From Eucommia ulmoides (Eukaryota; Streptophyta; Magnoliopsida; Garryales; Eucommiaceae), in contig CM028328.1 in the NCBI GenBank assembly GCA_016647705.1, positions 36,432,501 through 36,496,500 of the forward strand: a DNA stretch of 64,000 nucleotides, in the 5' to 3' direction. Each line of letters opens with the position of its first letter. Within the stretch, counting starts at the first letter, position 1. The notes beneath the pieces are model-generated. The model made no database searches and was not told the DNA's origin. It saw only the letters and a program-made list of their open reading frames with translations. This document shows positions 5,230 to 56,973 of this stretch, piece after piece. Both the position numbers and the translations under genes were made by a program.

Positions 5230-7552
5230 TGTTGACCTAGTGAGTTACTCAAGAGAGGGGTAAATTGGATAGTTATAAAACTTTAAACAAATTTCTTATC
5301 TTTCAACACTTAAATAATCAAATAATTAATTTATCCTAAATCAATTATTAGTTTTATAACACTACGAATAAGTGTTCAAATCTAGGTGCATACCCAAACA
5401 ACAAAATATAAATAAAGTAAATCAATACAACACATAAGGATATATCCTGGTTCACCAAGCTATTTTTGGTTAATCCAATCCTTCGAGCCTCATAGAGATT
5501 CGTACCTACTAAAATCTAGATTCCTTTAAAGGTAGAAACCAAACCCTCATAATAATTTTTTTTCACAGACTCAAAATCAACCTTTACAATTCCCTTTTCA
5601 CGGGCTAAGGAAGAACACTATCTTTTTTTAGGTTTAAGACTAATCTAATTCTATTACAGGAAGAATCACAACCTAATTCTTTTACCAGGCTAAGAATTAA
5701 ACCTCACAATCACTCCAAGTATCTTTTTCACCGATAAGGATAGAACCGTTACAATTCACTTACAAGTAATTCTAATCAGGAAGAATCAAACCTAATTATT
5801 TTTAAAGGAAAATAATAACCTAACCTTTTTGTCCACTAGGTAAAGATGAAACCTCAATTTGTTTCCCGCAAAAAAATTGAAACTCAGCTACCCTGACTAG
5901 ATATCCTCAATAATATCTAATCTGTACAAACTTACCATTTACAAGAAATCAATGAGTTTCTTCCCACTCGGAGCTTCTATCACTTCAAATCAATTAAACT
6001 CAATTAATGTCTCGAAATTATTAGTGATAGAAATTAAGTGAAGAATTCAATATTTAATTATAATATGTGTGGGTAGCACAGAATTTAAGCACGTAATCAG
6101 ATAATCACATAAATCGTTTTAAAAATATTTTTTATGTTCTTTAAAGTTCAAAAATGATTTTACTACGATCTTTAAACCAAGCAAAAAATGATAATATAAA
6201 TTCGTAATAAAGGATAAATAACTTGGAAAGATCTCCCCAAGATAACACCGAAAGACTGAAATCAGAATAACAATACAACACAGATTGGTGACGCCAAAAT
6301 AATTAGCGCTTTAACTCAAGAACTTTGCACACAATAATCTCACGATTGATCTCTTGAATATATCTCAGAATAAAAACTCTTAGAAATCTCAGGAATTGAA
6401 AGTTCTTGATTGATGTGATGTATTTTAATCTAAATTCGTAGGTCTATTTAATGAAATTTGAAACAGGCCGTCAAATAGCTAATTTTCTCAATGTAGGCCT
6501 CTAAAAAGCACCTATAGACCCCATATATCATTACCATTCATTCCTGGTATATTTCACTCAAATATGAATTTTAAAATATTCAATTTAGTCCCCAAATTAT
6601 TTCTCAATCTCAAATTGTATAGATAGGAAATATTAAACGAACCAAATTGAGAAACACTTTAATTTTATGTACCATATCTATAAGGTTATTAAAATAAGTG
6701 TATCATATCTTTAAATATCTCACTCATATATCCCAAAAATGGTTAGTTTTGAATAAATCCTTGAAATCCTCAAAATCTGAACCAAACTGTCGATTGACCA
6801 ATCATAGGACATTCGTCGATTGATCGATTCAAGTTACACGCCAAGCCATTTCTCAAACAACGGTCAGTTGACCAATCCTTCAACGGTCGATTAACCGATC
6901 AATTCAGGATGTGCTTCTAGGCCATTTTTAAGCCCTCGTCGATTGACCGATCGATACAGAGAGTTTCACTTCGGTCCATCAGTTGACCGATCTCCCTTAG
7001 TTGGTTGACCGATCGATTCAGAGACTCCTCATTTTTCCAGTCTTCTTCAATCGGTTGACTGATCCTTTGATGGTCATTTGCTCAATCCAAGCTGGAACAC
7101 TCATTTCTCAAATTAATTCAACTACAAACTTCAACGTTTTAATCCCGTTAACCGATTTCTTTTCTTGATTAACTCAATTGACACTAATATTCAATTTTAA
7201 ACACTAATCCTTCTTAGGCCAATTTTCATTTTTAATATCACATTAGAGCAAATAATTGAACACTAATTAGGACCTTAATTACATCAAATTAAATGCACAT
7301 AAATATTACTCATTAATTTGTGTCGTGTGTGTGATCCTAATCAGGATACATTAAGAGTAAAAGATGTTTGAGTTGTTTTCACCTAATTTTTTTAGAATCT
7401 TCAACACTCTTGATCTCTTTAATGTCCATCTATGTATCTTCAATAATTGTTTCATGATTTGATCTTGAATGTAACTCTTAAACTGAAACACTCAATTAGT
7501 TTCACCAAAAACATTAACGCTTAATTGTCCATCAAAACATCGGGATCAACAG
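5230..7552 (-). mobile_element. SIRE-like solo LTR A
   Basis: A 2.3-kb segment starts TGTTGACC and ends GGATCAACA. It is flanked by the exact 5-bp TSD GTATG (5225-5229 and 7553-7557). It has no internal domains, PBS or PPT, as expected of a solo LTR left by LTR-LTR recombination. The sense strand is minus: it aligns in reverse with LTR B, and a TATA-like box (TTAAATAGACC) lies at about 6440-6452. It contains a cluster of TTGACCGATC-type words at 6785-7075. The SIRE/Maximus assignment rests on the CTCTCTTGGGT-type terminus and is inference. Confidence 0.88.
6785..7075. repeat. TTGACCGATC word cluster in LTR A
   Basis: About eight degenerate copies of GTCGATTGACCGATCGATTC lie here at irregular spacing. 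Several are followed by CAGAGA. The cluster lies roughly 330-640 bp upstream (sense direction) of the TATA-like box of this LTR. Confidence 0.75.
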
Positions 7553-7557
7553 TATGG

Positions 7558-7949
7558 AAACTAATGGTAGTACTCTTTATCCTATTTTTCCAGAAGTTAC
7601 TTTATCAGAGACAAAGGAGAAGTACTTCCAACAAATCACAATCCTCAGTCTGAGCCTCAGGCTTATTCCAGAAAAAGGTTTCACAAACGTACTACTGCTC
7701 CAATTATTCCTCCAGCAGATGTTCAATCCAATTTTTTGAGTAATGGTCCTACAACTCAAAGTAATATTCCTTCTACTCCCATTCTTTCTTTATCTCTTGA
7801 TTTACCAAATTTATCTTCTTATGATCTTGATCTTCCTATTGCATTAAGAAAAGAAACCCGAACATACACTAAACACCCTATTGCAAAATACTTGTCATAC
7901 AAAAAATTGTCAAACACTCATAGAGCATTTGTGTCTAGGATTTCTAATC
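7558..7949 (+). pseudogene. Copia1 integrase C-terminus to RT linker
   Basis: After LTR A the Copia1 frame resumes with the variable, proline- and serine-rich stretch (NIPSTPILSLSLDLPN). It then reaches the conserved pre-RT motif TRTYTKHPIAKYLSYKKLSNTH and RISNLS. The next expected residues (VPRTIQEAL) appear only at 10145, on the other side of LTR B, which shows this is one interrupted gene. Confidence 0.85.
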
Positions 7950-7954
7950 TGTCT

Positions 7955-10139
7955 TGTTGATCCTAAAATTTTGATGAACAATTAAATGTTTATTTTTTTG
8001 GTGGAACTAACGGTTTGATTAAGTGTTTCAGTTTATTAGTTTCAGTGATGAAAATGATCATGAAGATATTGTGCCAATGCTAAAGATGATGACAAAGATG
8101 ATGGAAGATTAAGAGTTTGAAGAAATTGAAGAATCTAAGGAAAATAACTCAGGTTAAATTCTAACTCTTAATATCCCAATTAGGATCATACACGACACAA
8201 AATGATTTTTATAAATATGTATTTTTTTTTTCTAGGATCCTAATTAGTTAAATTATTTGCTCTTATGTGAAATTGAAAAAGAAATTTTGATAATTAATTA
8301 AAATTGAACTTAAGTATTTAGTGGAGCTAACTGAGAAAAAAAATCGATTGAAGGGGCGAAAATGTTGAAGAAAAAGGATTAAAAATGAATTTAGAAGAGG
8401 TTCCCAACATTGATAAGTCGACAATTAAGTCGACCGGAGCATACAAGGTGAAGTTGCTGAATCTCTCGGTCGACAAGTAGGTCGACCTGAGCTTAAATAT
8501 TGAACTCTCTAAATCGATAAGTCGACAGGGAGGTCGACCCGTGACCAGAAATGAAACTCTCTGAATCTCTAGGTCGACAGATGGGCGAAATTTTTTTGGC
8601 TTGGCTACATCTTGAGTCGACAGGTAACTCTTGGTCAGTCGAGTTATGGCACTGTTTCAAGATTTTGTGGAATTTCATATTTTATTCTAAAAGTAGACGT
8701 TACTAGCCATTTTATGGTTAAGATCTGAGAGATATCTTGGGGATTTGATGTTATTTTCCCTATAGATATAGTTCATTAAGTTTGAATATTTCTCAATTTG
8801 GTACATGTAATTTTTTCTATCTTATTTAATTGTGATTGAGAAATATTTGGGGGACTTAATTGAGATATTTAAAAGCCATAATTAAATGATTTGAACCAGG
8901 ATGAAGTCTTAATGATATAAGGAGTCTATAAGAGCAATTAAATATCATAACAAGTAGGAACTAGTTGTTGGAGAGCTTGTTTTATTCCCTTTTATATAGA
9001 CCTGTGTTTTTTTCACATTAAAGATAGACACATCAAGAGAATTATTCTAAGCTATTCAACTTTCGAGTTTTCTGAGAGGAATCATATTGATTGAGTTGTG
9101 AGATCTTTTTTGAGAGTTATTCTTGTGGAATATTTGCTGTGAATTATTGTTACTACCGATATGAAATTTCATTGCTATTTGTAATTATTATTTTTTCGAT
9201 GGAATCCTGGTGACATATTTTCAAATTACTTTCTATTAATTGTTGCTTGATTATATCTGGTTTTCGGAATTTGATATTTGAAATTGCTTTCGATTTTTTA
9301 TTGAAAATTATTCTTTGAAATAATTTCTTGAAGAAATCTGATTACGTGCTCAATTATGTGCTACCCAATTTTTGTTTAAAATCAGATTTTGGATATCTCA
9401 CTTTTCTATCGCTAGTTTTGGTATATTAATTGAGTTCTAATTTATCTGGGATGGTAGAATCTCCGGGTGAGAAAAATTACTTATTAATTTGTAATTAGTA
9501 AGTTAAGTGACGGATTGAATACTATTGGTAGTATTTAATCAAAGGGTAGCTGGTTTCAATCTCTTCCTGTAAAGAGATTGAGGTAGTAATTCTTCCTTGA
9601 TTGAATTGATTTGTGAGCAATTTTGTAACGGTTCAATCCTTACCAGGTAAAAGGATATTTGGAGTATTTGTGAGGTTTAGATTCTTTAGTCTAAGGTACA
9701 AAAAGAATTAAGTTATTCTTGAGCTTGTAAAAATTAGAGGTTATTCTTGAGCCTGTAAAAAGTAAAGGTTATTCCTGAACCTGAGAATTTTTTTTTAAAG
9801 GTTGATTATGAGCCTGCGAAAAGAATCATTGTGAGGGTTTGGTTCCTACCTTTGAAGGAATCTTGAGTTTAGTAGGTGCAACACTCCGTAGAGCTCGGGG
9901 GACTGGATTAGCCAAGAGTAGCCTGGTGAACCAGTATAAATTTCTGGTGTGCTGCCATTTTTCATTATTTATTTTTGTTGTTTGGTGTGCACCTAGTTGA
10001 TATTATATTTTCACTGTTATATGAAGATAATAATTAATTTAGGATTAAAATTAATTATTTGGATTTTTTGAAGTATTTTCTCTGATAATTTTTTATGTAC
10101 CCAATTCACTCCTCTCTTGGGTAGCTCACTGGGCCAACA
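7955..10139 (+). mobile_element. SIRE-like solo LTR B
   Basis: It starts TGTTGATCC and ends GGGCCAACA. It is flanked by TGTCT (7950-7954) and TATCT (10140-10144), a 5-bp TSD with one change. It is the same family as LTR A but in the opposite orientation. It carries a TATA-like box (TTTATATAGACC) near 8990-9001 and a terminus with CTCCTCTCTTGGGTAGC. No internal coding region is present. The palindromic word cluster at 8410-8640 differs from that of LTR A. Confidence 0.86.
8410..8640. repeat. GTCGAC palindrome cluster in LTR B
   Basis: At least four paired words of the form GTCGACAxGTAGGTCGACC lie about 350-590 bp upstream of the TATA-like box. GTCGAC is itself a 6-bp palindrome. The spacers contain near-repeats of CTCTCTGAATCTCT. 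The same word type recurs in the SIRE-like LTR C. Confidence 0.8.
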
Positions 10140-10144
10140 TATCT

Positions 10145-11208
10145 GTTCCAAGAACTATTCAGGAAGCATTGGGTGATCTGAATTGGAGATTAGCTGTGAT
10201 GGAAAAGATGAATGCTCTTAGGAAGAATAACACTTGGAGTGTCATTGATCTACCCAAAGACAAGAAGACAGTTGGGTGCAAGTGGGTGTTCAGAGTGAAG
10301 TGTAAAGCTAATGGAAGCGTAGAGAGATACAAAGTGAGACTCGTAGCAAAAGGGTTTACTCAAACTCATGGTATTGACTACCAAGAGACTTTTGCTCTTG
10401 TTGCTAAGATTAACTCTATCAGAATACTAATTTCTCTTGCAGTTAACGCCAACTAGCCACTTCATCAATTTGATGTTAAAAATTTCTTTTTGAATGAAGA
10501 CTTAGAAGAAGAAGTATATATGGACCTGCCACTAGGATTTGAAGAAAGACTTGGAAGTGGAAAAGTGTGCAAATTGAAGAAAGATCTATATAGACTGAAG
10601 TAGTCTCCTAAAGCTTGGTTTGGGCGTTTTGAAAATATTATTAAGAGACATTGTTTCTTACAAAACCAAGCTGATCACACCCTATTTTTCAAACATCCCA
10701 CTTAACATAAATTTTTTATTCTAATAGTACATGTGGATGACATAATCATGACTGGGGATGATTCTCTAGAGATCAACAACTTGAAAAGGAAGCTTGAGGC
10801 CGAATTTGATATCAAGGACCTGCGAAAGTTGAAGGAGTTCCTTGAAATGGAGTTCACAAGATCCAATGAGGGAATTTTCATAAACCAACGCAAATACATT
10901 CTTGATTTGCTCAAAGAAATAAGAATAACTGGTTGTAAGGCAACAGATACTTCAATCGAGCCTAATGTGAAATTGAAAGTAACGATAGCTAATGAAGTAA
11001 TGGATCGAGAACGTTATCAAAGATTAGTTGGGAGACTAATCTATTTGGCTCACACTAGACCTGACATAGACTTTGCAGTAAGTGTTGTAAGCCGGTTCAT
11101 GCATTCACCTGGACCTACTCACTTTGAAGTTGTGTTCAGAATTTTGAGATACCTCAAAAGGACTCCGGAAAAATAACTTTTGTTAAAAAATAGAGATCAT
11201 TTCCAGGT
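10145..11208 (+). pseudogene. Copia1 reverse transcriptase
   Basis: The frame resumes with VPRTIQEALGDLNWRLAVMEKM, then NTWSVIDLPKDKKTVGCKWVF and RLVAKGFTQTHGIDYQETF. A stop follows at 10454. The middle ([21 protein letters not shown], with a stop in the LYRLK region) is broken. The last part at 10733-11176 gives VHVDDIIMTGDD, FDIKDLRKLKEFLEMEF, LVGRLIYLAHTRPDIDFAVS and RILRYLKRTP. The catalytic YVDD is HVDD here. The gene is cut at 11214 by LTR E. Confidence 0.9.
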
Positions 11209-11625
11209 AGAGGTGATAGGTTGATTTTATCTATCTATTTCTAAGCCGATTTTGATAGTTTTCGAGTGTTATTGTAATGTTTTAATATGTTTTAATTCAT
11301 TTTTGATATACCTCAAAAGAACTCTGGAAAAATGACTTTTGTTAAAAAAATAGAGGTTATTTCCAGGTAGAGGTGATAGGTTGATTTTATCTATCTATTT
11401 CTAAGCTGATTTTGATAGTTTTCGAGTGTTATTGTAATGTTTTAATATGTTTTAATTCGTTTTTGATATACCTCGAAGGGACTCTGGAAAAATGACTTTT
11501 GTTAAAAAATAGAGGTCATTTTCAGGTAGAGGTGATAGGTTGATTTTATCTATCTATTTCTAAGCCGATTTTGATAGTTTTCGAGTGTTATTGTAATGTT
11601 TTAATATGTTTTAATTCGTTTTTAT
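11146..11625. repeat. Threefold ~160-bp tandem repeat across an insertion junction
   Basis: Three copies (starting near 11146, 11305 and 11465) each contain the end of the Copia1 RT reading frame (ATACCTCAAAAGGACTC type) followed by the first ~90 bp of LTR E (TGATAGGTTGATTTTATC). The LTR start appears at 11214, 11374 and 11533. Only the third copy runs on into the rest of LTR E. Because each unit spans the Copia1/LTR E junction, the triplication happened after LTR E inserted. Confidence 0.92.
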
Positions 11626-11746
11626 TTGTTTAGTATAAATCAGGTGTTTAGGACAAAAATAGATGAAAATGGTTAAAAATCGAGCAAATCGGTAGGACGT
11701 CAGTGGAGAAATGGTTGAAAAGATTAAAGAAAAGAAATGTAGCCTC

Positions 11747-11850
11747 CACTGCTACAGCAGTGAAAACCACCGCTGCAACGATCAAAAGAACGAAGACTTT
11801 TCGCTTAACCACTGTTGCAACGATGGTCTCCACCGCTGCAGCGGTCCGAT
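11747..11850. repeat. Palindromic words in LTR E
   Basis: CACTGCTACAGCAGTG (11747-11762) is a near-perfect 16-bp palindrome. CCGCTGCAGCGG (11833-11844) is a perfect 12-bp palindrome. Two further degenerate copies lie between. The core ACCGCTGCAGCG is identical to one in the unrelated Gypsy1 LTR. Confidence 0.85.
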
Positions 11851-12629
11851 ACCAGGTGGCTTAGATATTTTGGGATATTTTCTTAGATATTTTGAATCCC
11901 TTAATATCCCCTTTGTCACTCTACACCCCAGGTGCCCGTCACCCGAGGCCGGGCATGTCGTCGGCATGACACTCCCTGTCCAACCAACCAAACACACCCA
12001 AATATATATATTACGTACATACCTAGACACACGCGTACCACTATTAGTATTTTCTTTTTTTTTCCAAAACAATATCTCAATTTCATTCTCAAAAATATGG
12101 GACACACCCGTCCCAAGTATATATACAACAAAAATCACCAAAAGAAAATGATGAACCTTCCCCGGTTCGCCTCTGACCGGCCTACCTCCCAAAATAACAC
12201 TACTTCCCGGACTCTATCTAGTGCTAGGAGTGGACTCTCTCCTATTTGCGGCACCTGAAACTAAATTTTTTATCGGTATACTGTCTTCATAATAAAAACA
12301 TTTTGTATGGATCAAGTATAAGAATTTAAATACCACATTACAAAATATAATATTATATAATCACATACCGTACGGAAATCCAGTTTCCCGATCACCACTG
12401 AAATAAACTCATATTTAAAACACTCAATCCAAATATTTTAAGTCAACTAGAGCAACCAAAATAATATATATACGCCAATCCATTTTAAAATAATATATCC
12501 AAACCGAAGCAATCTAGGCAATTCATCGTAAAATACACCACACTCATTTTCTACCAGCCATAGGATCGTTTTTACCTCACGATCGAGAGTTGCAACGGTA
12601 CCGTACCACCCGCAGTGTTTACATCCCTG

Positions 12630-12900
12630 ACGAATCAATCAACCACCTGCATGACTAATCCTCCTAACAGGTCATAATATCAACAACCACCTGTCGGACT
12701 AACCCTCCGGATAGGTCATAATGTCAACAACCACCTGTCAGACTAACTTTCCAGATATGACATAATATTAACAACCACCTGCCAAACTAACCCTCTGGAC
12801 ATGTCATAATATCAACAACCACGACTAACCCTCCGGACAGGTCATAATATAATCAACCACCTGTAGGATATGCCCTCCTAGCAAGTCAAAACTATCCCAC
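12630..12900. repeat. 44-bp tandem repeats in Gypsy1 3' LTR (about 6 copies)
   Basis: The unit contains AACCACCTGYCGGACTAACC followed by CTCCGGACAGGTCATAATATCAAC. One unit is shortened. The same array in the partner LTR has about eight units. Confidence 0.88.
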
Positions 12901-13549
12901 AGGACATACCCTCCTGATGCGATCAAAATTATGGCATAGCCGTACCAAAAATCACACTCCACATTTAGAAATTTACTTAACCCATATAAGTTGTAAATTG
13001 TCCAATTTTAATAAACATATTTTTCCACAATTTATACGAAAATAAAATTTGTACGTTTACATAGAAGATAGTACACTCACCTCGTTCTCCGCCCTACAAA
13101 GACGTCACTGTCCACAACCTACTAGGACACTGGCGCCTGTGAACCTAACAACGATAAACTTAAATTAATATTTTACTTTAAAATAACCTAATGTGCAATG
13201 CAGACCCTAAATCTCATATTTCTCATTCCCCAAGTTTTCGTTATGAAGAATTTTTATTTCGTCCGTCTCGCTACGTTAATATTTATCGCACTAATTATTC
13301 AAGATTAACGATCATAACAATATTATTACGGTTTCAAAAATTACTATTTACCTCAATTCACGGCATTAAGACTTACTGTACAATATTTTTTTTAAATTAA
13401 CAGTTGTAAACATTACTATTGTCACGATTATTAATTTTAACAGTTATGGAAATTTTAACGCTAGAAATTCATTTTTTAACAAAATTAGAAATCGGTTGAA
13501 ATTTTACCCTTTTTACGAATTGTTGAAGTTCAATGTTTTCTGCCCAGGT

Positions 13550-13660
13550 TTTCACCGCCGCGGCGATGGTCTCACCGCTGCAGCGATGCAACAGCAATTC
13601 TGCACGCAAAAGCTCACCATCGCAGCGATGGATCTCACCGCTGCGGTGACGGTTATCGTC
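13550..13660. repeat. Palindrome cluster in Gypsy1 3' LTR
   Basis: CCATCGCAGCGATGG (13617-13631) and TCACCGCTGCGGTGA (13635-13649) are perfect odd-centred palindromes separated by 3 bp. CACCGCCGCGGCGATGG and CACCGCTGCAGCGATG precede them. The intervening TGGATCTCACC also occurs in LTR F. Confidence 0.88.
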
Positions 13661-14619
13661 TTCGTCTGCTCCTGCTTCGTTTCAGACCAGTCGCTTCTCT
13701 CTCTCTCTCCTCACTAACTCCAACAGCTCACTCGTCGCCCTTCACCAACGATCAAAACACACACACACACCCCACTCTGACACTTCCCCACTTATCAGCC
13801 CACACACATGCACACAACAAGCATCAGAGAAACAACGCATGAAATCATCACATGCACACCTACGGCCTTGTCGTCTGAATAGTGATGACCACACACCTAC
13901 CGTCACACACACACACGCATGCGTTTGAACCGCACACACACTCACATACCCACACACCCACAAACCGTCAAACAAAACCAACGAACGACACACACACATG
14001 CACCTATGCACACCGGATCAAAATAGAAGAACACACCCACACAGTCACACACACACCCCGACCAAAACACACACTCATGCACGATCACCAGATGATCGAC
14101 GAAGAACTCTCACATGAACTTTGCCAGACGAAGGCACCCATATCACCAACGATCAAAAACAGCACCGACGACGCACACCGGACCGACCAAACGCCTTCGA
14201 TCCTTTCTCTCTTTCTCTTCCCTGTTTTCGTTTCTGATTTCTTTCTTTTGAGATTGATAATCAAATTGTGCATAGACGAATTTATATGCATGATCATGGT
14301 GGTGGATCGTGAATCCTTGCGTTGCCACGTCGAAGGCCCTCTCTCTCTATTTTGGTTTTTGTGATCCCACTGCCGTAGTGAACATATAGGTGTATATATA
14401 TATATATAATATCCTTTTCCCAAATTACACTAGCCTCCCCTTAATTTTCTTTAGGTTTTTTCATTTGAATCCCCAAATTCCAAAATGAACATTTCAAAAA
14501 TTACCAATTGACCCCTAAACTTTTTAAGTAAATTAGAAATAATACATTCTACCCCGTTAATTTCTAAATGCTAAAAAATGAGGCTAAAATTATGCATATG
14601 CAAAAATTAGAGTCTTACA

Positions 14620-14636
14620 ACCCTTCCTTCCAAAAA
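14620..14636 (-). other. Polypurine tract of Gypsy1
   Basis: On the minus strand this reads TTTTGGAAGGAAGGGT, directly before the LTR start TGTAAGAC. It would prime plus-strand DNA synthesis. Confidence 0.85.
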
Positions 14637-19078: not shown

Positions 19079-19804
19079 CAAATGTCACTCCCCACCTCGG
19101 GTGTCGTCACCCAAGGTCGGGCGTGACGTCTGCATGACACTCCATGTCCAACCAACCAAACATACCCAAATATATATATTATATACATACCCAGACACAC
19201 ACGTACCACTATTGGTATTTTTTTTTCCCCAAAACAATACCTCAATCTCATTCTCAAAAATATGGGACACACATGTCTCAAGTATATATACAACAAAAAT
19301 CACCAAAAGAAAATGTTGAACCATCCCCGGTTCACCTCTGATCGACCCACCTCCCAAAATAACACTACTTCCTAGACTCTATCTAGTGCTAGTAGTGGAC
19401 CCTCTCCTATTTGCGGCACCTGATACCAATTTTTTTTATCGATGTACTATCTTCATCATAATAAAAATATTTTGTATGGATCAAGTATATGAATTTAAAT
19501 ACCACATTACAAAATATAATATTATATAATCACATACCGTACGGAAATCTAGTTTCTGTGTCACAACTGAAATAAACTCATATATTTAAAACACACAATT
19601 CATATATTTTAAGTCAACCAGAGTAACCAAAATAATATATATACGTCAATCCATTTTAAAGTAATATATCCAAACACAATCAATTCAGGCAATTCATCGT
19701 AAAATACACCACACCCCTTTCCTACTAGCTATAGGATTATCTCACGAACGGGAGTTGCAACAGTACCGTACCACCCGCAGGGTTTACACCCCTGATGGGT
19801 CAAT

Positions 19805-20150
19805 CAACCACCTACAGGACAAATCCTCCCAACAGGTCATAATATCAATAACCACCTGCCGGACTAACCCTCCGGACAGGTCATAATGTCAACAACCACC
19901 TGCTGGGCTAACCTTCCGGACAAGTCATAATATTAACAACCACCCGCCGGACTAACCCTCCGGATAGGTCATAATATCAACAATCACCTGCCGGACTAAC
20001 CCTTCGGACAGGTCATAATATCAACAACCACCCGTCAGACTAACTCTGCGAACATGTCATAATATTAACAACCACCTGCCGGACTAACCCTCCGGACATG
20101 TCATAATATAATCAATCACCTGTAGGACATGCCCTCCTAGCAAGTCAAAA
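19805..20150. repeat. 44-bp tandem repeats in Gypsy1 5' LTR (about 8 copies)
   Basis: The same unit as at 12630-12900, with about two more copies. CTCCGGACAGGTCATAAT is the best conserved part. Differences between copies are mainly C-to-T and G-to-A. Confidence 0.88.
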
Positions 20151-20821
20151 CCATCCCACAAGACATACCCTCCTGACGGGATCAAAACTATGGCATAGCC
20201 GGACCAAAAATCACCCTCTACATTTAGAAATCTACTTGACGCATATAAGTTGTAAAATTGTCCAATTTTAATAAACACATTTTCCCACAATTTATACAAA
20301 AATAAAATTTGTACATTTGCATAGAAGACAGTACACTCACCTCATTCTCCGCCCTACAAAGACGTCACTCGCCCCAACCTACTAGGACGCTGGTGCCTGT
20401 GAACCTAACAACAATAAGCCTAAATTAATATTTTACTTTAAAATAGCCAAACGTGCAATGCAGGCCCTAAATCTCATATTTCCCATTCCCCAAGTTTTTG
20501 TTATGAAGAATTTTTATTTTGTCCGTCTCGCTACGTTAATATTTACCGCACCAATTATTCAAGATTAACGATCATAACAATATTATTACGATTACGATAA
20601 TTACTATTTTCCCCAATTCATGACATTAAGATTTACTGTATAATTTTTACGGTACAATATCTTTTTAAAATTAATAGTTGTAAACATTACTATTGTCATG
20701 ATTATTAATTTTAACTGTTACGAAAATTTTAATGCTAGAAATTCAATTTTTAACATAATTAGAAATTAATCAAAATTTTACCCTTTTTACAAATTGTTGA
20801 AGTTCACTGTTTTCTACCCAG

Positions 20822-20935
20822 GTCTTCACCGCTGCAGCGATGCAATAGCAGTTCTGCACATAGAAGCTCACCGCGGCGGCGATGGATCTCATCGCTGTGG
20901 TGACGGATCTCACCGCTACGGTGATGGTCGTCTTC
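20822..20935. repeat. Palindrome cluster in Gypsy1 5' LTR
   Basis: Includes CACCGCTGCAGCGATG, CACCGCGGCGGCGATGG and CACCGCTACGGTGATGG at positions equivalent to 13550-13660. It confirms that the module was present in both LTRs at insertion. Confidence 0.85.
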
Positions 20936-22864: not shown

Positions 22865-23234
22865 AGAGGCCTACATAGATGCAGATTGGGCAGGCAATGT
22901 AACTGATAGAAGATCCACCTCAGGTTATTGCACCTTTGTAGGGGGAAATCTGGTTACGTGGAGAAGCAAAAAATAAAGTGTTGTGGCAAGAAGTAGCGCT
23001 GAAACAGAATTATGCTCCGTGGCACATGGATTTTTTGAAGTGTTATGGATCAAGAGACTTCTAGAAGAGTTGAAGGTTCCTATTCTAACACCAATTAAAG
23101 TCTATTGTCACAAGAAGGTTGCAATTTCTATAGCTCACAATCTAGTTCTACACGACAGAACAAAGCATGTAGAAGTGGACAAACATTTCATCAAGGAGAA
23201 GATAGACAGTGGCGTGATATGCATATCTTACATA
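22865..23234 (+). pseudogene. Copia1 RNase H, first part
   Basis: Copia1 resumes after LTR E with [20 protein letters not shown] and [15 protein letters not shown] stop follows (TAA at 22975), then VARSSAETELCSVAHGFFEV, LWIKRLLEELKVP and HVEVDKHFIKEKIDSG. The conserved residues D, E and D of the RNase H fold are visible. The frame is cut at 23240 by element F within ISYIP. The next part (VSQAANILTKGL) is at 28658. Confidence 0.92.
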
Positions 23235-32554: not shown

Positions 32555-32559
32555 CCAGT

Positions 32560-32790
32560 CGACTGCCCAATTTAGGTTGTAGCCAAGCTATCGTGGCTGC
32601 GTGCATCGGTCGACCTATCTGTCGACTTGTAGATTCAGAGAGTTCATTTTGCCTTCATCGATCGACCTACCTGTCGACTTATAGTTTCAGAGAGTTCAAC
32701 TCCTCTTGGCCGGTCGATCTACCTGTCGACTCATAGATACAGAGACTTCATGTTGATTGGTTAGGTCGACTGACCAGTTGACTTACATCT
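32560..32790. repeat. GTCGAC word cluster in LTR C
   Basis: Four or more words of the form GGTCGACCTACCTGTCGAC, each followed by TTATAG or similar and CAGAGAGTTCA. The first pair is split by LTR G and begins at about 31040. The words match those in LTR B rather than those in LTR A. Confidence 0.85.
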
Positions 32791-40851: not shown

Positions 40852-41354
40852 AATAGATTAAGCACTCTTGATCTCAGAGTGACGTGTCTGGTGAACCATT
40901 TTTATCATAAAATACCCATAAAATTATTTTTTAACATTAACTCACTACGCTGTAATATAGGAGTTTGGTAGTGGTTTTTTCCCTCTTCAATATTAATCTT
41001 AAGAAAAAGAATTTCCGTGTATTAAAAACAGAATTTCACTTTAATTTTTAAAAAGAAAATGAGTATACTGGAAGTAAAGTCGGAGGTGGTAGTACGCTTA
41101 TCCTGTATTTGTTTATTATTTTTGCATTTACTACGATGTCATCGTGACACCAACGCTTCCAACAGAGTTCTAAAAATGTAGTATACAATTATCTATGAAT
41201 TGACCAAAGTATCTAACATGAGAAGCACTTCGTCGTCGATATTGTTTTGCACGTAGCCCACGTTCACACAAATGTATGTGTGATACCCACCGTACCTATA
41301 AATGGTTCACCCTATGAAACCAATCAATCAGACCTAACAGAAAAATAAAACAAT
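40852..41354 (+). promoter_or_regulatory. PME upstream region with TATA box
   Basis: The 503 bp between the Copia2 LTR and the PME start codon form the gene's remaining proximal promoter. A TATA box, CCTATAAATGG with TATAAAT at 41297-41303, lies about 52 bp before the ATG, predicting a short leader. No other element could be assigned firmly. Confidence 0.7.
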
Positions 41355-44300
41355 ATGGCTTCTCTTCTTGCCTATGGCAAAGTTAACGAAGCCGACCAGG
41401 AGCGGATCCAAAACCGTCGAAAAACAAGAAAGCGAATCGCTATCATAACTTTATCCTCTGTCATTCTCGTCGGCGTCATCGTGGCTGCCGTCGTTGGAAC
41501 TTCTCATGGGAAAGACAAAGCTTCGGGCGGCAATGGCAAACCTCTCTCCGCCTCCATCAAAGCAATGTGCGACGCAACTCTCTACCCGGAATCGTGCCGC
41601 ACTAGCCTAACTCCGTTAGTAAACTCAAAACGTGCCATTCATCCCGAAGACATCTACAAGTTATCGGTTCAGGTAGCCGCGGAAGAACTATCAAGCGCTT
41701 CTCGTCGTTTAAAAAAGGTCTCGGATCCCCAAATGACGGCCGCTCTCGAGAGTTGTGTCGAACTTCTCGACTTGGCTTTGGACCATCTCGGTAGCGCGGT
41801 TTCCAACATCGAGGGGTCGTTATATGACGCCTCTGATGATCTCAAAATGTGGTTGAGCGCCGCCGGGACATACCAACAGACCTGCATCGATGGGTTCGAT
41901 TACGCAACCGGCGGGATAAAAAATGATGTTTATAAATACCTGAAGAACTCGACTGAGTTCACAAGTAATAGCCTGGCGATTGTGAGTGAGCTGGAGAGAC
42001 TCGCGAGTTCTTTCAAGCTAAGACGAAGACGCTTGTTGGGTATCGATAGTCATCATAATGATGTTGAAATGGAACCCAAATGGTTGGTTTCCAAGGATCG
42101 TAAACTGCTCCAGACAGGGAGTTCAAAAATAAAGGCTGACGTGGTTGTGGCGAAGGACGGGTCTGGGAAGTACAGGACCATTGGTGATGCACTCAAGGCG
42201 GTGCCGGAGAAGAGCAAGAAGAGGTTCGTCATCTACGTGAAGAAAGGGGTTTATTCGGAAAATGTGAGAATTGAGAAATCGAAATGGAACGTGATGATGA
42301 TCGGCGACGGAATGGCAGCAACTGTAGTAACCGGCGGGAAGAACTTTGTGGATGGAACTCCAACTTTCCAGTCCGCAACATTCGGTAAGTTTATATGCAT
42401 GCATGCACGTCTATATATTATTTGGAACCTAAAGCAATAAATTAAGACGATAAAGATAAAGGTTAAAACATGGGGAAAAAATCAGCAGTTTAATCTCAAA
42501 TGGTAAAAATTGAAGATTGCACATTTTACAATGCAATTTAACTAGTTTAGACATACTATTGTGCGGACTTAGAAAAACTTATAATTTTTTCTTAATATTG
42601 AAGCATGAAATACATACCTATTATTTAGTTATTCTCTTAGCAATGTCTGAAAACAGATGCATAAATTTCAATAAGTAATAGTGGTTTATAAATACTGAAA
42701 ATAAATATACTATTAAAAATTACATAAATATTTATAAGAGTGAAATAATATTTTTACTATTTTACTATAAAATAACAAATAAATAACCTAAGATCAATTT
42801 TATCAAATTTTGCACGTCAATAAATTCTAATTTAATTAATTTATATCGTATATATTTTCTTTTTGGGTAAAAATATTTTTTGAATTATAATTATTTTTTT
42901 AAGTAATTTAAAATGTGCACTATGAAATTTAATTATATATTTGTGCATTTATTAACAAAAAAATAAATGTAACTAAAATAAAAAATAAACAAAAATTGAG
43001 GGGAACCGCTCATTATTTGATATATAAAAAAAAAAAAAAAAAAATATAAAAACTCATCAAAAAACTTGAAGAGTTATTCTCAAATCTCATTAAAATATCC
43101 TCTCTCATTCCACTTTTAAGTAGTAGTATTGGAGATTAGATTAGATACTCAAAATGATTGCATTTAATAAAATATTGATTGCATTTAATAAAATAATATC
43201 ACTTAAATAGATCAAAATATTTCAAGTGATGCGCAAAATATTTATGGTTTGGTACTTAAAATTATAAAAAAATTATTTTTACAATTATCGTTAATAATAA
43301 CTATTTTAAGATATAGAGAAAATATAAAGTAAAATGTAGAGAAAGTAACAACTACCGAGAGAAAAAAAAATAGAGAGAAAAATGAGGAGAGTGTTTTTAA
43401 AGATATCAAATTGCAAAAAATAAAAAATAAAAAATAAAAAAGGAAATTGTAAACACACTTATTAAAATAAAAAATATTTTAAAAAATTACATAAAAAAAT
43501 TCCACTAATAAATTCAATATTAAATTAAAATACGTTAATTATTAATTTTCGTGAACTAATTTTCAATTTTATTAAAAGATCTTAAAAAAGAAGAAATTTT
43601 TGGCCCTTTTAATTTTAATTGAGGGACACTTATGTTTATACAGTTTACGTCTTAATAATTGAGATTGGTAACTTGTGAAATTTATGTGCGCAATGTATTC
43701 CTAAAAAATTTCTCATGACATTGTTTGTGCTTGTTCCAAACCATAAAAAGATTTATCTAATTTGCACACTTTGTTTTTTAGACCAGAAATTACAAATCCT
43801 TCAGGTTGGTCCATATAAATCTCTTCTTCTAATTCACCATTTAATAAGCAATTTTAACATTCACATGGTGCACAACTAGATCATAAATGGAAACAAGTGA
43901 TAAAATCACACGAATAGAAGTAATTCTAGAGACAAGTACATGAATTTCTTCTTAAGAATCCATTTATATCCTATTGTTTTTACAACCAGGAGGTAAATCT
44001 ACTAAATGTCAAGTTCTATTTGACTCGATAGAGTCCATTTCATCATCTATAGCCTCTTACCATAAATTGGCATCTACAGAGGACAATGTCTCTTGGAAGG
44101 TGGGCGGATCCTCCTCTAAAGTATATGCATAGAAATTTGAATCATAATCCTTAACAATACGAGTTCGTTTACTTTTTCTAGGTTCAATTTCTCATTCTTT
44201 AACTGATTCATTAATTCTAATGACAACCACATTACTAGATATTGTGCCCCCACTATTCTTCAATTTAAAAAGAAGTTTACGTTTATAATTATCAGCATCC

Positions 44301-47300: not shown

Positions 47301-48557
47301 CATGCCCTTAATTATACTTCTCATCAACTTTTCTCCCAACCAATGTAGAATAGAAGAAATAGAGGGAAACCACTTTTGACACTTATCTTTTATTAATAAA
47401 AACAATTAAAAATTCATATGTTCCAACAGTCGATCAATTCTAAAAAAAAAAAAAGTTTATTTTAAAAATTGGACTAGACCAAAAACAAAAATCGTTCAAT
47501 GTCGTTAAGATCGTTAAGATCGAAAAACCAGTGACTGAATCAAGTATACTATGAAACCAGAACGACCAACTGATTCAATCTGTTGACAAAGTTAAACTAA
47601 ATGACAATATCTGAGATGATAGGTATAGTCACGTGAATCTGTTAGTCTATCTAAAATCTAGGAAGATTCATTTTTTAATTTTTTGCATTCCAATGTGAAA
47701 TTTTTTTAAAATATGTAAAAAATATATTTTGAAAACATATCTTGAAAATGTCTATGGAAATATTTTTTTTATATATAGATATTTCAATTCCATTATATTA
47801 ATGTATTCATTTAGCTTAGTAAAATTTACATCGAAGAATAAGGATTTTCGGATAAACCAAATTGCTTTTATTTTACGTAGCGGTATTCGGAAAAGGCTTT
47901 ATTGCTCGAGACATGGGTTTCAGAAATACAGCCGGCGCGGCTAAGCACCAGGCAGTTGCCCTTATGTCAACCGCTGATCAATCAGTCTTCTACCGATGCC
48001 GCATGGATGCATTCCAGGACACCCTCTACGCCCATTCCAACCGCCAATTCTATCGCGAATGCAACATCTACGGCACAGTTGACTTCATATTCGGAAACTC
48101 AGCCGTCGTCCTCCAAAACTGCAACATACTGCCCAGAAAACCATTACTTGGCCAGCAGAACACCATCACGGCCCAAGGTCGGTTCGACCCCAATCAGAAC
48201 ACTGGAATCTCTATCCAGAATTGTACCATTTGGCCCTTCGGAAACCTCACCAATGTTCATACTTTTCTGGGTCGGCCTTGGAAGAACTACTCCACCACGG
48301 TTTACATGAACAATGTGATAGGGAGTTTGATTGACCCGAAAGGGTGGTTGCCGTGGGTAGGAGATACTGCACCGAACACCATTTTCTACGCGGAGTTCAA
48401 GAATTTTGGGCCAGGTTCTTCTACCAAAAATAGGGTCAAATGGAAGGGGTTAAGAAACATTACCAGCAAACAAGTTGGGAAATTCACAGTTCAGTCATTT
48501 ATCAAAGGGGAAAAGTGGATCCCGGATACTGGGGTTCGCTACGAGTTGGGTTTGTAA
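41355..48557 (+). CDS. PME: Pectin methylesterase with PMEI pro-region (type I pectinesterase)
   Basis: Two coding exons, 41355-42384 and 47881-48557, join in phase to give 568 residues, a normal length for type I PMEs. The enzyme removes methyl esters from homogalacturonan in the cell wall. A cytosolic tail is followed by a signal anchor at residues 28-48. A PMEI-like pro-region spans about 62-215. Basic processing motifs occur at about 222-227 (RRRRLL) and 248-251 (RKLL). The catalytic domain spans about 261-568 and shows GVYSEN, QAVAL, QDTLY, GTVDFIFG and LGRPW. By alignment with the family the catalytic residues are Q367, Q389, D390, D411, R475 and W477, all present. Donor G|GTAAGT and acceptor TACGTAG| are canonical. 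No stops or frameshifts were seen, so the gene looks functional. Confidence 0.96.
44706..45060 (-). pseudogene. Copia D protease and zinc-knuckle remnant
   Basis: The minus-strand frame includes a decayed zinc knuckle (CGKAGYMTQNC, His replaced by Tyr) and the protease segment WRVDTGVSHHVYYECAMFRP, KKVLLGDSHSTIVDD and LKNVLYTPEMR. The Ala after DTG is Val. It is frame-interrupted on both sides. Confidence 0.88.
46501..47428 (-). mobile_element. Copia D 5' LTR
   Basis: A 928-bp LTR from TGTTACTGCA to TTCCAACA (plus-strand reading), matching the Copia2 3' LTR in reverse. A low-complexity GC patch lies at 47152-47222. It is inverted relative to the Copia2 LTR on the other side of PME exon 1. 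Confidence 0.92.
47152..47222. repeat. GC-rich patch of short tandem motifs in Copia D LTR
   Basis: Successive short runs of CTCGA, CACGG, GGAC, GACGGC and GC follow one another. The equivalent place in the Copia2 LTR (40170-40230) holds a different GC-rich sequence. Confidence 0.85.
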
Positions 48558-48904: not shown

Positions 48905-48913
48905 TAAATAATA

Positions 48914-50404: not shown

Positions 50405-50446
<42 letters not shown>

Positions 50447-50972: not shown

Positions 50973-51027
<55 letters not shown>

Positions 51028-53266
51028 GCATGTTGTGTGTGCGTGTGCCGTGAGCTCAGCCGGAGACAGGAGAGGATGAGAGAGGGGTGATGTGGCGTAA
51101 AGGAATCCAAAAACTAATTCACAAAAACCCATGCAATTAAATGATCCATAAAAATCATGATCTCAAAGCCGGAAAAGAATGAGAAAACGGAGGAGAAAAA
51201 TCAAAAATCTAGAGAGAGAGAGGGTCGTCGAAGCTGTGGTGATTACCGGTGGTGGTGGGTGTGTTCTTCTGGTTGTTTGGACAATTCCATGTACGTGGGT
51301 GCGGTTGGTCATGTGTGCTCTGTTCAGTTCGTCGCCATTTTGCGCGTCATCGGTGTGTGGGTGTAGGTGATCGACGGTGGTTGTGTTCCTCTGTTTTGAA
51401 CCGGCGTGCAGGTGTAAGTGTGTAGGAGTTTTGTTGACAGTGTGTGGGGGTGTGTGCTGTTGTGTGTGCTGTTGTGTGTGGTGTGTGCTTAGTCACCGGA
51501 GTAGGTAGAGATAGAGAGAAGTTCGCCGGCGGGAGTGATCGTCGTGTTTTGTGTTTCGTGGGTATGTAGGTGTTGTGTTGTGGGGTGGTTTGATCAGACT
51601 TGTATGGGGTGTTGTTGGTAGAACGAATTGCTGTGTAGGTGCGTTTTGGTTGTTGGTGAGGGGTGGTGAAAGAGCCGCTGAAGTTAGTGAAGAAGAGAGA
51701 AACAAGGGGGTTGTTCTGATCAAAGCATGAGTTGAACGAGGAAGACGGTTATTCGCCTAGGCAGTGACAATCTTTGCCTGGGCGGTGGAGCATCAGAACG
51801 CAAAGTAGAAAGAAACTGGAGTTTGTTTGCCTAGGTGGTAGGAAGACGGCCTAGGTGGTGGCGCGTTAGTAAGCAAATTAGGGAAAAGAGGAAGCGTGTT
51901 CGCCGCGGCGGTGAGTACTGGAGCATAAACTAAATTGTTTAAGGAAAAGGAAAATCGACAACCGTTTCGGAGCGGGTAACGTTTCTCGTTAAATTTTATG
52001 TTTGTTAAATTTAACTACTAGCATCAAAATTTCGTAATCGGAATAATAAATTTTAGGACTGTTCGTATTACTAAAGTTTATACAGTAAATTTTAACGAAA
52101 CGAAACCTAACCGAATGATAACTTTCCATAGTAAAACGTGGGGATGGGAAAATTGTGAAACTTAAGGCCTACATCGCTATTAGGTACGCAGGCACTGGAG
52201 TCTCGGTAGAATGTAGTCAGTGAAAGTTTTGCGGAGCAGATATCGAGGTGAGTGTACTGTCTTCTACGTAAATTACAAATTGTATTTTCACATATATTAT
52301 GGAAAAATTGTGTTTATTTAAAAATAGACGAATTTGCAACTTATATGGATCAAGCTGTTTTGGGTGTTTGTGGAAAAATGATTTGTTGAATCCAGTTGGT
52401 TGCTAAAATGGTGAAAAATGATTGTGCATCGAGTCAGTTGTTTTGAGGTGGAAGTTGATGGTCGGTATAGCTATGCCATAGTATTTTCTTCCCAGAAGGG
52501 ATGTGGATTATTTGCTAGGCATAGTCCTGCAGAGTGTTGATTATCTGTTAGGCAAAGTTCAGCAGAGCATTGTTGTGACCCGTTAGGAAGGCAAATCCTA
52601 TGGGTGGTACGGTACCGTTGCAACTTCCGATCGTGAGGTTAAAACAATCCTATAGCTAGTCAGAGAGTGGTGTGGTGTTTTGTCGTATACGGTGAACCAG
52701 TTGGTGTATATATATATTACTTTACACTGGATTGGTGTATTTATTATCCTGGTTGATTTTCACTACTTGGATGGAATGTTATAAATAGGTGAGTTTATTT
52801 CTGAGATGACAGGAAAACCGAGATTTTCGTGTGGTATATGATTTTATATCATTCTTTGACATGTGGTATTTAAATTTTTATACTTGATCCATACAAAATA
52901 TTTTTATTATGAAGGCAGTATACCGATAAATTTTTTGGTTTCAGGTGTGGCGGCTATGAGTCGGTCCTCTACTGGCACTAGATAGAATTATCCAATAGTG
53001 TTGTCTGGGAGTTTGAGAGTGGGCTGTCTGAGGCGAACTTGCCGGAGGTTCAGTGCTATTATTTTATTAATGTTGTTTTTGTTATATATATATTCGGGGA
53101 TGGGTGTGTCCCAATTTGAGAGGATGTATATGGTCTATATGCCTGTTTATTACATATGTGTGTGTGTGTGTGTGTGTGTGTGATTCTGGTTGGCTGGGTA
53201 TTCAAAGGGTGTCATATCGACGTCATGCTAGCCCAGGGTAACAGGTGTCTGGGGTGGAGTGTGACA
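50674..53266 (+). mobile_element. Gypsy solo LTR H (Gypsy1-related)
   Basis: It starts TGTAAGACCCGG and ends GGAGTGTGACA. The flanks are TATCA (50669-50673) and TATTA (53267-53271), a TSD with one change. Start, end and the degenerate 44-bp repeat zone (about 52490-52610, only about three units) match the Gypsy1 LTR in the opposite orientation. CA/TA and TG microsatellites lie at 50976-51027 and 53158-53181. No internal genes. Confidence 0.85.
51748..51920. repeat. CCTAGG-centred palindrome cluster in LTR H
   Basis: Words CGCCTAGGCAGTGAC, GCCTGGGCGGTGG, GCCTAGGTGGTAGG, GGCCTAGGTGGTGG and CGCCGCGGCGGTGAG. The centre is CTAG in most, as in LTR G, whereas the related Gypsy1 LTR has TGC/TGCA centres. 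Confidence 0.87.
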
Positions 53267-53614: not shown

Positions 53615-54039
53615 AGACAGTCAAAATGAACAAGCATGATGGATGGAGTATTGTAGCGCTTATATATGCGACTCCCAACCAAGCTTGCGTCAACATAAGC
53701 ACACATCCCTTCAAAGTCAAGGCATACTGACCCGCTTAAATTCAAAGACTATGTCAATGGTCAAGGACCTGACAAAATAAGAGGAGTTTTCCTCCACTGC
53801 ACAAATTGATAGGGAGTTGGAACTATTTTCCTGATGAGCTCAAGGCAGGGCGAAACCAATCAGCATCGTACAAGAAGACAGACTTATCCTCGCATAGCGA
53901 ACGCGTCGGGAGTACCGCATAGGCAAATGTCACTGCCCTAGCTTTCATTACCTTTTCTTGCTATTGCTTTTTATTTCCCAATCTATTCCAACCAATAAAC
54001 TATAGAAATTACCCTTTGGCCTTCAATCGCGAACCCTAA
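53615..54039. other. Unassigned DNA between MULE and element I
   Basis: About 425 bp without a recognisable gene or repeat. It may be ordinary intergenic sequence. Confidence 0.4.
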
Positions 54040-54788: not shown

Positions 54789-54826
<38 letters not shown>

Positions 54827-54954
54827 AATGTGCCAGTCCTACTCCTAACTAAGAAAAATGAAAATATTTCTGAAGAAGGTGCGCACATATCCCCAAATAA
54901 ATAGAGGTCCTCCCTTTATTTCTAATTTTTACCCACAAGGGTCTCGACATAATA

Positions 54955-54992
<38 letters not shown>

Positions 54993-56973
54993 GGTGCCAA
55001 TCCACGATCCCTATGACTTCGTGTCAGGCTGTGATCTAGACTATTGTAGATACAAAAGTTACTTGTTAGTAGTTAGTGGTTAGCAAATTAGTAATTCGAG
55101 GTTTGTTTTGAGTTTTTAGAGTTCGGTTTCTTGTATTCTTGAGAGAATCAAATATGTTATGCACAACTCGTGGTGTGGTTGATGTTTTTGTCATGCTCTT
55201 GACATGTTCTCAATGTTCTTGACATATTTTTGGATGTTTTTGACATATTTTGATGGTTTCTATGTTTTTTATTTGTTTCTTGATATATACACTATGTACA
55301 TGAAATATGAATCTAAGAACTAACCAAACATGTTATATACAAGCAATATAACAGTATTTAAGCAAGATTGAAGGGCATTTTAAGAAGATTTACCTAACCT
55401 TGGGGAGTGGTCTTTCCCTAAATGATTTCTTTCCTCTCATTCTTTGATATTTTCGGTTGTTCTCGATAGTTCTTCAACAACTTCTAGAGATATCCTCAAG
55501 AACACATTTAGGAAGCTATTTTGACATAATTTCGGGGTGTTTATGATGTAGAAGACTTGAGAATTCCCTAAACCTGAGAGATAAATTCGAGACTAGAGAG
55601 AGAGACTTGGATCAGGCCCTTCAAAATATGAAAACAAACTGCCTATTTATATGCTAGGGAAACCTGCGCATTGGCCAATGCGCAGGGTATCCCAACTAGC
55701 TCCTTAGGGGCTATTTGGTCTAGGTGTGACCCTTTGATATCTTCTAGTTTGATGGTTTTTGACAAATCTGGAAGATTCACTAAGATTTCCTCAAATTTTG
55801 TAATGATTATAAAATCTTAAAATATCTAAAGTGATGATTGGCAGTCATTACTCATGATTGGTCATCATTAGAAATATTGGTCATGATTGGCTTGCACATG
55901 GGATATTTAATGCTTGATGTGATGCTTTTCAGTTCGGTTTGCTCGCTACGTACTAGTTACTTGAACTATTTCGGTTAGCTTGCATTAAATGATTTGGAGG
56001 TGCAATGTATGCAATCTCTTCTTTTCATTTTTTATTTAATTCTTGATCATGACACTTGATTTTATGGGCCTTTAATTCCTTTTTGATGGAAGGGAATTGG
56101 TCCGGTTAGCCTTGTAACCATTTAGTTACTTTTCAAATAACTTGGTTTCCCTATGTTATTTTGATCAAAATATCTAGGTTCTTTGTATGTTGTCTCCCTA
56201 TGTTATTTTAAACATTTATTCTTGATGGGAGGTTGATTTTATGACTCATTTAATGCTTGACTTGATGGGAAACCGAATCGGTTGGATTTGTAACCGTTAG
56301 TTACTTTTCAAGTAACTTGATTTCTACCTTAGATATTTTGGTACGAAATTTCTTTTCATTTAATGCTCATTAATGAGTCATTAAATTCATGATAGGGCTC
56401 TTGATGTGATGGGCTTTGAATGCTAGTTATGATGACTTCGGTTTGGTTGGTTTCGAACCTTGTCTTAAGTACTTGTTACTTTGGGTAACTATACTTGCGA
56501 TGATAGTCTCCTTGGTTTGATCAAGGTTTTTGGTTTGATTTATGGAGGATTTATGCTTTAAATAAAAAAAATAAAAAAGTATTTTTGGTGTCAAGAAGAC
56601 GAAACCTGTGATAGTAAATATTTTAAGGGTCAAAACGGGTAACAAAGGTAATTAGTGAAATATCATTAAATTAAAGGGTAGTAACTAATTTTTATTCATA
56701 TTAAAGGTGATTTCATGAAAATCAACCTTTAATAATTTCATTTTAGTCCCCCCTTAACTTTAGGAATTTCGAGGTTGACCTGAAACTTTTATTTATACCG
56801 AATTTAGTCAATTTGACAATTTTAGGTTTTCTTGTGTTTTTTGCGATTTTTTCTATGGTATCCAATGTGTTATAAGGTATAAATTCATTCTATTTAAACC
56901 TCAGTATAAAGTTTATCTGAACTTGTACTTTAAATCCGATACTAACTGGGCGGGATAAAATGTTGTGTCTACA
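54040..56973 (-). mobile_element. Element I 3' LTR
   Basis: A 2.9-kb LTR ending TGTGTCTACA (plus strand), with the pyrimidine tract CTACCCCTCTTTGTCAT just outside. A TATA box on the minus strand (TATAAATAGGC, 55641-55651) lies beside a perfect 24-bp palindrome. TA microsatellites lie at 54792-54823 and 54956-54990. Confidence 0.8.
55663..55686. repeat. Perfect 24-bp palindrome upstream of the element I TATA box
   Basis: CCTGCGCATTGG is followed immediately by its exact reverse complement. It ends 11 bp from the minus-strand TATA box. No mismatches were found despite the decay elsewhere in the element. Confidence 0.95.

Follow-up and report, generated by a model that had tools for sequence, protein, structure and literature searches.

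The DNA stretch considered here, referred to as the window, comprises 64,000 nucleotides of the Eucommia ulmoides genome (contig 4, 36.43-36.50 Mb) and contains retrotransposons whose long terminal repeats (LTRs) carry arrays of short palindromic words, among them words of the form CACCGC-N4-GCGGTG. An initial annotation of the window described clusters of such palindromes in Copia, Athila-like Gypsy, chromodomain Gypsy (here Tekay-like), and Ogre-like LTRs, and proposed that they make up a modular, promoter-proximal region whose words are either copied between families or selected for a shared function. The palindromic words are confirmed as real and genome-wide. CACCGC occurs 24 times in the window against 5.4 expected, GTCGAC 23 times against 5.0, and CACCGCN1-8GCGGTG twice against 0.00, while palindromes with 6-bp arms, an arm GC content of at least 50%, and a CpG in the arm number 17, compared with 2-9 in five shuffles. 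The same class of palindrome is found 43 times, against 7-15 after shuffling, in 17 stretches of 10 kb taken at round positions on 17 contigs.

The clusters lie at the annotated places. An Athila-like LTR on the plus strand (31055-32554; G in the initial annotation, as its letters were mapped here) carries seven words at 31237-31449 with TTAG, CTAG, or CTAA centres and one CTGG, followed by a TATA box at 31508-31514 (CTATAAAACCCC context). This LTR sits inside the Copia copy bearing array C and defines what is here called the 31-kb subfamily, for which 39 further copies at 91-95% were found among 40 scored of 7,237 candidates; the slot-1 word of the subfamily is absent from the LTR itself. Two minus-strand Athila-like LTRs at 23240-24619 and 27265-28652, 87% identical to each other, have words at about 24250-24430 and 28280-28450, respectively. 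An Athila-like fragment of the unique 3' (U3) region (11142-11913, plus strand) has words with TACA/TGCA centres at 11747-11845, preceded at 11142-11623 by sequence resembling an Athila-like LTR start, present in three copies as a 159-bp tandem unit. The 3' part of a further plus-strand Athila-like LTR (21930-22870) is without words. Copies of the Athila-like LTR align at about 65-90% on either side of the array, both where the LTR begins and where the repeat and unique 5' regions (R/U5) lie. The group is assigned from LTR layout and primer site only, the latter being presumably of tRNA-Asp type; one internal open reading frame of the group gave no match to Pfam domains.

The Tekay-like element on the minus strand is bounded by LTRs at 11914-14622 and 19083-21915, which are 87% identical over the first 950 bp and 85-94% identical in further pieces. 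Its words are located at 13553-13649 (CGCCGCGGCG, CGCTGCAGCG, CCATCGCAGCGATGG, and TCACCGCTGCGGTGA) and at 20827-20924, and between the LTRs lie matches to Retrotrans_gag, RVP_2, and SH3_Tf2-1 (E 3e-21), together with a weak Chromo match (E 0.018, below the curated cut-off) in a 28-residue piece behind a stop. Both LTRs also contain a 44-bp tandem repeat, with 5.4 copies at 12634-12864 and 7.3 copies at 19800-20122. Another Tekay-like LTR on the plus strand (51340-53126, ends approximate; annotated as H, as mapped here) has words at 51753-51913, of which three have TA centres, one TG, and one GC. Centres accordingly differ within families in the way described by the initial annotation, whose family and centre assignments hold as mapped: GC-type centres characterise the 23- and 27-kb Athila-like and the 13- and 20-kb Tekay-like LTRs, whereas the 31-kb LTR has TA-type centres and the one at 51.7 kb mostly TA.

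The Copia arrays, given without strand, are array A (6785-7075), with words containing TTGACCGATC or CGGTTGACCG and a related locus (L005) elsewhere; array B (8417-8621), with GTCGAC and GGTCGACC words upstream of an RVT_2 fragment; and array C (32558-32770), with GTCGAC words inverted relative to B. The SIRE-like label of these arrays is putative, its support being the RVT_2 adjoining array B. The TTGACC inside Copia words may be a WRKY W-box. As for the Ogre-like cluster, a perfect 24-bp palindrome is indeed present on the minus strand (55663-55686), 11 bp from a minus-strand TATAAATA (55644-55651), but it is a single word rather than a cluster, in a putative LTR context.

The spacing of the half-sites is narrowly restricted. 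Across the 946,670,599 bases of the genome searched, CACCGC-N4-GCGGTG occurs at 11,873 sites, compared with 8 for the same pattern read backwards, which served as the control genome-wide. The N0 to N2 versions number 2,645 (control 19), with N1 accounting for 49 of the 50 listed and hence, by extrapolation, for about 2,600 genome-wide, whereas the N3 version occurs 40 times (control 4) and the N5 to N12 versions together 138 times (control 646). Nearly all words thus fall at two spacings, N4 and N1, three bases apart. Decay after insertion would by itself leave about 18 N3 sites, which is roughly within twofold of the 40 seen; the estimate takes the target to be 6 bases and draws on just three single-base indels, counted over six pairs of LTRs from the 31-kb subfamily. 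The same restriction is evident within LTRs of known orientation, comprising 28 Athila-like and 37 Tekay-like sequences (these exclude L003, L065, L068, and L069, the last being made up of two Athila-like pieces that face opposite ways, and the Tekay-like set also excludes L055, which was overshot and unaligned). At d = 4, CGC-Nd-GCG occurs 70 times in the Athila-like and 35 times in the Tekay-like set; the corresponding d = 1 counts, which partly overlap CGCG-centred d = 4 words, are 27 and 38, while every other d up to 15 gives 0-2 and 0-9. By pattern, Athila-like sequences hold 0-7 words each and Tekay-like sequences 1-4. The Copia-type pattern ATCGGTNNACCGAT is likewise abundant, at 3,860 sites against 28 for its reversed form.

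Words of the N4 class are carried by more than the two Gypsy lineages. From 50 listed N4 places (of the 11,873), 24 stretches were examined, all of them within the first 2.3 Mb of contig 1. Athila-like LTRs account for 21 of these; one is Tekay-like (L068, which matches the 51-kb LTR over 130 bp), and two belong to a third, unclassified repeat family (L003 and L065) with flanks 73-76% identical and the word stretch between them unaligned. In L003 (994-2500), this family sits inside Tekay-like LTR sequence.

The centre of the Gypsy words is symmetric as well. The central dinucleotide of the N4 sites is TA in 5,165 and GC in 3,296, together 8,461 of 11,873 (71%), the other fourteen dinucleotides having been left uncounted genome-wide. 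A self-complementary central pair is found in 39 of the 50 listed places (shuffles: mean 16.6, largest 27) and in 87 of 105 strict words of the oriented LTRs (shuffles: mean 42.4, largest 56). The latter analysis, which also covered covariation, retained the close copies L001, L063, L070, and L071; without these four, 66 of 82 strict words and 114 of 162 relaxed words are symmetric. Close copies were also removed from the tests of complementarity, 13-mer sharing, and between-subfamily identity described below. The outer pair of the centre, in contrast to the central pair, matches in 25 of the 50 listed places against a shuffled mean of 25.2, which is no excess. Since a paired centre is impossible inside a 4-nt hairpin loop, this symmetry indicates either duplex DNA or words that pair with one another.

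The initial annotation noted that the arms CACCGC...GCGGTG are common to two Gypsy families whose LTRs are otherwise unlike, and a BLAST comparison of the 13- and 20-kb Tekay-like LTRs with the 28 Athila-like sequences agrees: of eight matches, seven are pieces of words and one is a GT-rich stretch. With the word-free LTR at 21930-22870 set aside, the word regions of the two lineages have 48 13-mers in common in the same orientation and 47 in the opposite one, whereas shuffled word regions share 0.3 on average and at most 2 in 20 shuffles, so that words are shared between unrelated families far beyond chance. Most shared 13-mers lie within palindromes and few extend into linkers, for example ACGGTGAGATCCA; in addition, a 39-bp match between the 13-kb and 24-kb LTRs spans two words and a common AGATCCA linker. 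These linkers are one reason to consider that template switching or gene conversion has carried words or short arrays from one family to another, a reading that overlaps with the one favoured below. A further reason is L097 (G000 C9:26079808-26080307), a chimera in which the words and TATA box of one Athila-like subfamily are followed by the words and TATA box of the 31-kb subfamily, and transfer of LTR sequence between Copia and Gypsy has been proposed in wheat (PMC11302176). However, orientation-blind sharing is expected of a symmetric site under selection, while copied modules would add oriented linkers, and no excess of shared strings in one orientation exists between the lineages (48 vs 47). 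The sole clear chimera, L097, moreover joins two Athila-like LTRs, not two lineages. The confinement of most sharing to palindromes, equally in both orientations, on sequence grounds favours a common symmetric site under selection over the copying of longer modules, and the copying of modules between families is not demonstrated. Given the linkers shared in a few 13-mers and in the 39-bp match, exchange is retained as an unlikely contributor.

Within families, the arrays change by whole words. The 31-kb subfamily was aligned in 25 copies, from which L088 and L089 (no array) and the chimeric L097 were set aside, and in 13 of the remaining 22 at least one of the eight word slots is missing or fused, all eight being present in the other nine. 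Judging by position, with the two members on the same strand and about 5-6 kb from each other, there are seven LTR pairs, six of them with arrays. Four of these six differ by whole-word indels of 19-20 bp, which make up 5 of the 11 indels overall. Half-word fusions with breaks inside words can be read from the alignment in L070 and L080; in L070, slots 1 and 2 are fused such that a CTAA word and a TTAG word have become a perfect CTAG palindrome. The array is therefore as prone to turnover as annotated, but large gaps are not limited to words, the upstream flank of the 22 copies having 10 gap runs of at least 8.

The expectation that the word region would diverge faster than its flanks did not hold. 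Unmasked, the difference per site between elements is 0.114 in words and 0.073 in the upstream flank, and within elements 0.086 and 0.047. Masking the CpG columns brings the between-element figures to 0.067 and 0.065, with the inter-word spacers faster at 0.099, so that faster substitution in the words of this subfamily is ruled out and much of the unmasked excess appears to be CpG decay after insertion. As words match the flank outside CpG, they are not substitution hot spots, and it is whole words that form the unit of change. Purifying selection on the CpGs of the words was also considered, but a singleton-versus-shared test gave the opposite result (13 private and 23 shared changes, where the flank has 63 and 34; p 0.003), which is read as recurrent CpG change and decides nothing. 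Between subfamilies, 18 LTRs were compared after removal of D, L007b, and the word-free LTR; F and L061 lack a recognised LTR start, and L059 has too few words. Because cheap gaps let shuffled sequences align well, these values are used solely as identity above shuffles, which reaches 0.172 for the LTR start but 0.058 for the word block and 0.052 for the next 150 bp. The word block is less conserved than the 5' end, but not less than the stretch just downstream.

Centre types have a history of their own. On a tree of 26 Athila-like LTRs, built with the arrays excluded and without D (too short) or the word-free LTR, centre type (TA, GC, or mixed; GT and AC counted as GC-type, 60% of the words of an LTR deciding, L071 set to TA by hand) changes 5 times against a shuffled mean of 9.5, and the TA centre alone requires at least 3 changes forced by well supported branches. 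A tree of 37 Tekay-like copies, four of which were left unlabelled while the other 33 received a label by eye from one word each (AC taken as GC), calls for 10 changes of the centre among five states, the shuffled mean being 16.1; for the TA centre, well supported branches alone demand at least 4 changes. The centre type is inherited yet, to judge by these trees, has arisen repeatedly in both the Athila-like and the Tekay-like lineages, which upholds the annotated switching of centres inside families. Such clustering on the trees is also what might be seen if the arrays were a neutral by-product, with slippage in each lineage multiplying a set of founder words, and spacing and centres reflecting descent only; the equal substitution rates of words and flank once CpG is masked, and the existence of an element pair without any words (L088/L089), fit this as well. 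Against it, the same half-sites, spacing, and centres recur in otherwise unmatched LTRs and in the third family, the Gypsy word centre is symmetric beyond composition, and TA and GC centres recur independently, which together make a purely neutral origin very unlikely.

Where a TATA box was found, the arrays are promoter-proximal, as the initial annotation had proposed. The 31-kb LTR has 58 bp between the end of its last word and the TATA box at 31508, a layout shared by the aligned subfamily copies that keep the array, and TATAAATA after the array is common in several other Athila-like LTRs among those displayed. The reading favoured here, held at somewhat better than even confidence, is that these are cis-regulatory arrays in the LTR U3, with symmetric sites probably bound by one or a few homodimeric host proteins that feed the promoter; protein binding, activation, and the keeping of spacing by selection as opposed to descent are all inferred. 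The half-site CACCGC would be recognised together with its mirror GCGGTG at a fixed 4 bp, with a second class at 1 bp, and the central dinucleotide of the Gypsy words would obey the two-fold symmetry while switching among TA, GC, and, more rarely, AT. Slippage or unequal exchange among adjacent words would let arrays expand, contract, and change, and a breakpoint falling inside words would create a new centre from the left half of one word and the right half of its neighbour. The presence of such words in Athila-like, Tekay-like, and at least one further family would reflect their having been gained repeatedly and kept by selection for one host factor.

Several observations weigh against this regulatory reading. 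Covariation of the arms outside the CGC/GCG core is absent from the words of the oriented LTRs, as is covariation of the outer centre pair from the combined set and the listed places. When right half-centres are shuffled within LTRs having at least two strict words, 227 of 2,000 draws match as well as the real words (15 of 2,000 with relaxed words), so that self-symmetry and pairing between words are not cleanly separated. The centres of the Copia words (ATCGGTNNACCGAT) are mostly asymmetric, being TG/CA in 33 of 50 listed and self-complementary (TA or CG) in 16, which makes the symmetric centre a property of the Gypsy words; the TG/CA centre might be reached from TCGA by one C-to-T step. No TATAA[AT] lies close to the words in the 23-kb and 27-kb LTRs or in L014, nor was a TATA box located in the Tekay-like LTRs. 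L088 and L089 (C10 near 45.61 Mb, about 5.75 kb apart) are without the whole array and, by alignment, the TATA box, and this word-less copy seems to have replicated. Fixed spacing could in part be inheritance from one or two founder words. Lastly, the sense RNA of 31230-31455, the one array folded, folds beyond its shuffles (z -6.59, 0 of 200 as good), whereas the one control, a stretch just downstream, does not stand out as clearly (z -1.26, 22 of 200).

The strong fold of the sense RNA means that an RNA role deserves consideration, namely that words are kept or tolerated because the transcript folds into hairpins, the arrays being entry points for small-RNA silencing or its cost, an idea already put forward for maize Sireviruses; the excess of small RNAs at palindrome clusters of those elements (PMC10760457) is in line with it. 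Several features of the words sit poorly with hairpins, however. Loops other than 1 and 4 are nearly absent though hairpins tolerate them, and the self-complementary centre would lie unpaired in the 4-nt loop. Sense strands show no consistent bias of G:U over C:A, with 16 and 18 at the outer centre pair and, at pair -1, 5 and 20 in Athila-like but 27 and 1 in Tekay-like words. Neighbouring words are no more complementary (9.97 of 16 over 31 pairs) than other words of the same LTR (9.81 of 16 over 141 pairs), some pairs being out of register, and the arrangement of neighbours as inverted pairs, as where CTAA stands beside TTAG in the 31-kb subfamily, is not general. RNA hairpins are therefore considered improbable as the basis of the arrays. 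The probabilities attached to the alternatives overlap with that of the cis-regulatory reading and need not sum to one.

The closest known system is that of the palindromic repeated motifs of Sireviruses, located upstream of the TATA box and described as specific to Sireviruses among Ty1/copia elements (Bousios 2010, PMC2829016). As in the arrays described here, these are many short palindromes of dyad symmetry, family-specific and with variable intervening bases; they cluster before the TATA box in the LTR, as the present arrays do where such a box was found (PMC2829016). The Vitis Sirevirus motif CGGTCGACCG closely resembles the GGTCGACC words found in the Copia arrays (PMC2829016), and the Copia arrays of the window have CGGT..ACCG-type words like the Sirevirus core CGG-CCG, while the Gypsy words, unlike that core, have CCG before CGG. 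In contrast to the Sirevirus motifs and their Ty1/Copia carriers, CACCGC...GCGGTG with a fixed N4 (or N1) is carried across lineages by two Gypsy lineages and a third family, and the Tekay-like carrier has Gypsy-type Retrotrans_gag, RVP_2, and SH3_Tf2-1. The Sirevirus motif was defined by at least 8 copies per element, compared with eight slots, full in 9 of 22 copies, in the 31-kb subfamily. Also unlike the Sirevirus motifs, Gypsy-word arrays form no CpG island: GC content is raised (0.51-0.60), but CpG observed/expected in three arrays is 0.87, 0.92, and 1.22 against 0.91-1.18 in the rest of those LTRs.

In maize, the Sirevirus palindrome clusters have the consensus CACCGGACNNNGTCCGGTG and are linked to small RNAs (PMC10760457, citing Bousios 2016). 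Their outer arms CACCG...CGGTG are identical to those found here and the centre is likewise variable, although CACCG and CGGTG are 9 bp apart in maize and 6 or 3 bp apart here, and the maize palindrome is also present in Helitrons, outside its first family (PMC10760457). Taken together with the published maize consensus, the CACCG-to-CGGTG distances are 3, 6, and 9 bp. A common promoter code is conceivable on this basis, in which unrelated LTR superfamilies would converge on CACCG half-sites at quantised spacings read by one host family of dimeric proteins, the centre serving as an exchangeable identity tag that is switched array-wide, perhaps evading sequence-specific silencing; this extension is tentative and held at well below even confidence. 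The wheat elements RLC_Gisela (Copia) and RLG_Quinta (Gypsy) also share LTR sequence across superfamilies, but as one long homologous motif in place of the mostly short symmetric words seen here (PMC11302176). Palindromes appear in PMC6911290 as insertion targets, not as LTR words. A literature search, judged mostly from its listings and conducted largely without subscription papers, showed no prior account of such arrays in Athila-like or Tekay-like LTRs.

If unrelated lineages do depend on one palindrome read by the host, this would provide a concrete handle on how these elements are switched on or silenced in plants, and the palindromes of Sireviruses would look less like a peculiarity of a single Copia genus and more like something general to LTR promoters in plants. 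CACCGC-N4-GCGGTG is directly usable in a protein-binding screen, and half-word exchange offers an observed route for the renewal of regulatory sites.

Two further features of the window lie apart from the arrays. A PMEI-pectinesterase gene is present as two open stretches (41349-42440 and 47856-48557) 5.4 kb apart, with Copia-like sequence between them. At 58342-58923 lies a 34-bp minisatellite of about 17 copies, with higher-order periods of 68 and 137 bp.

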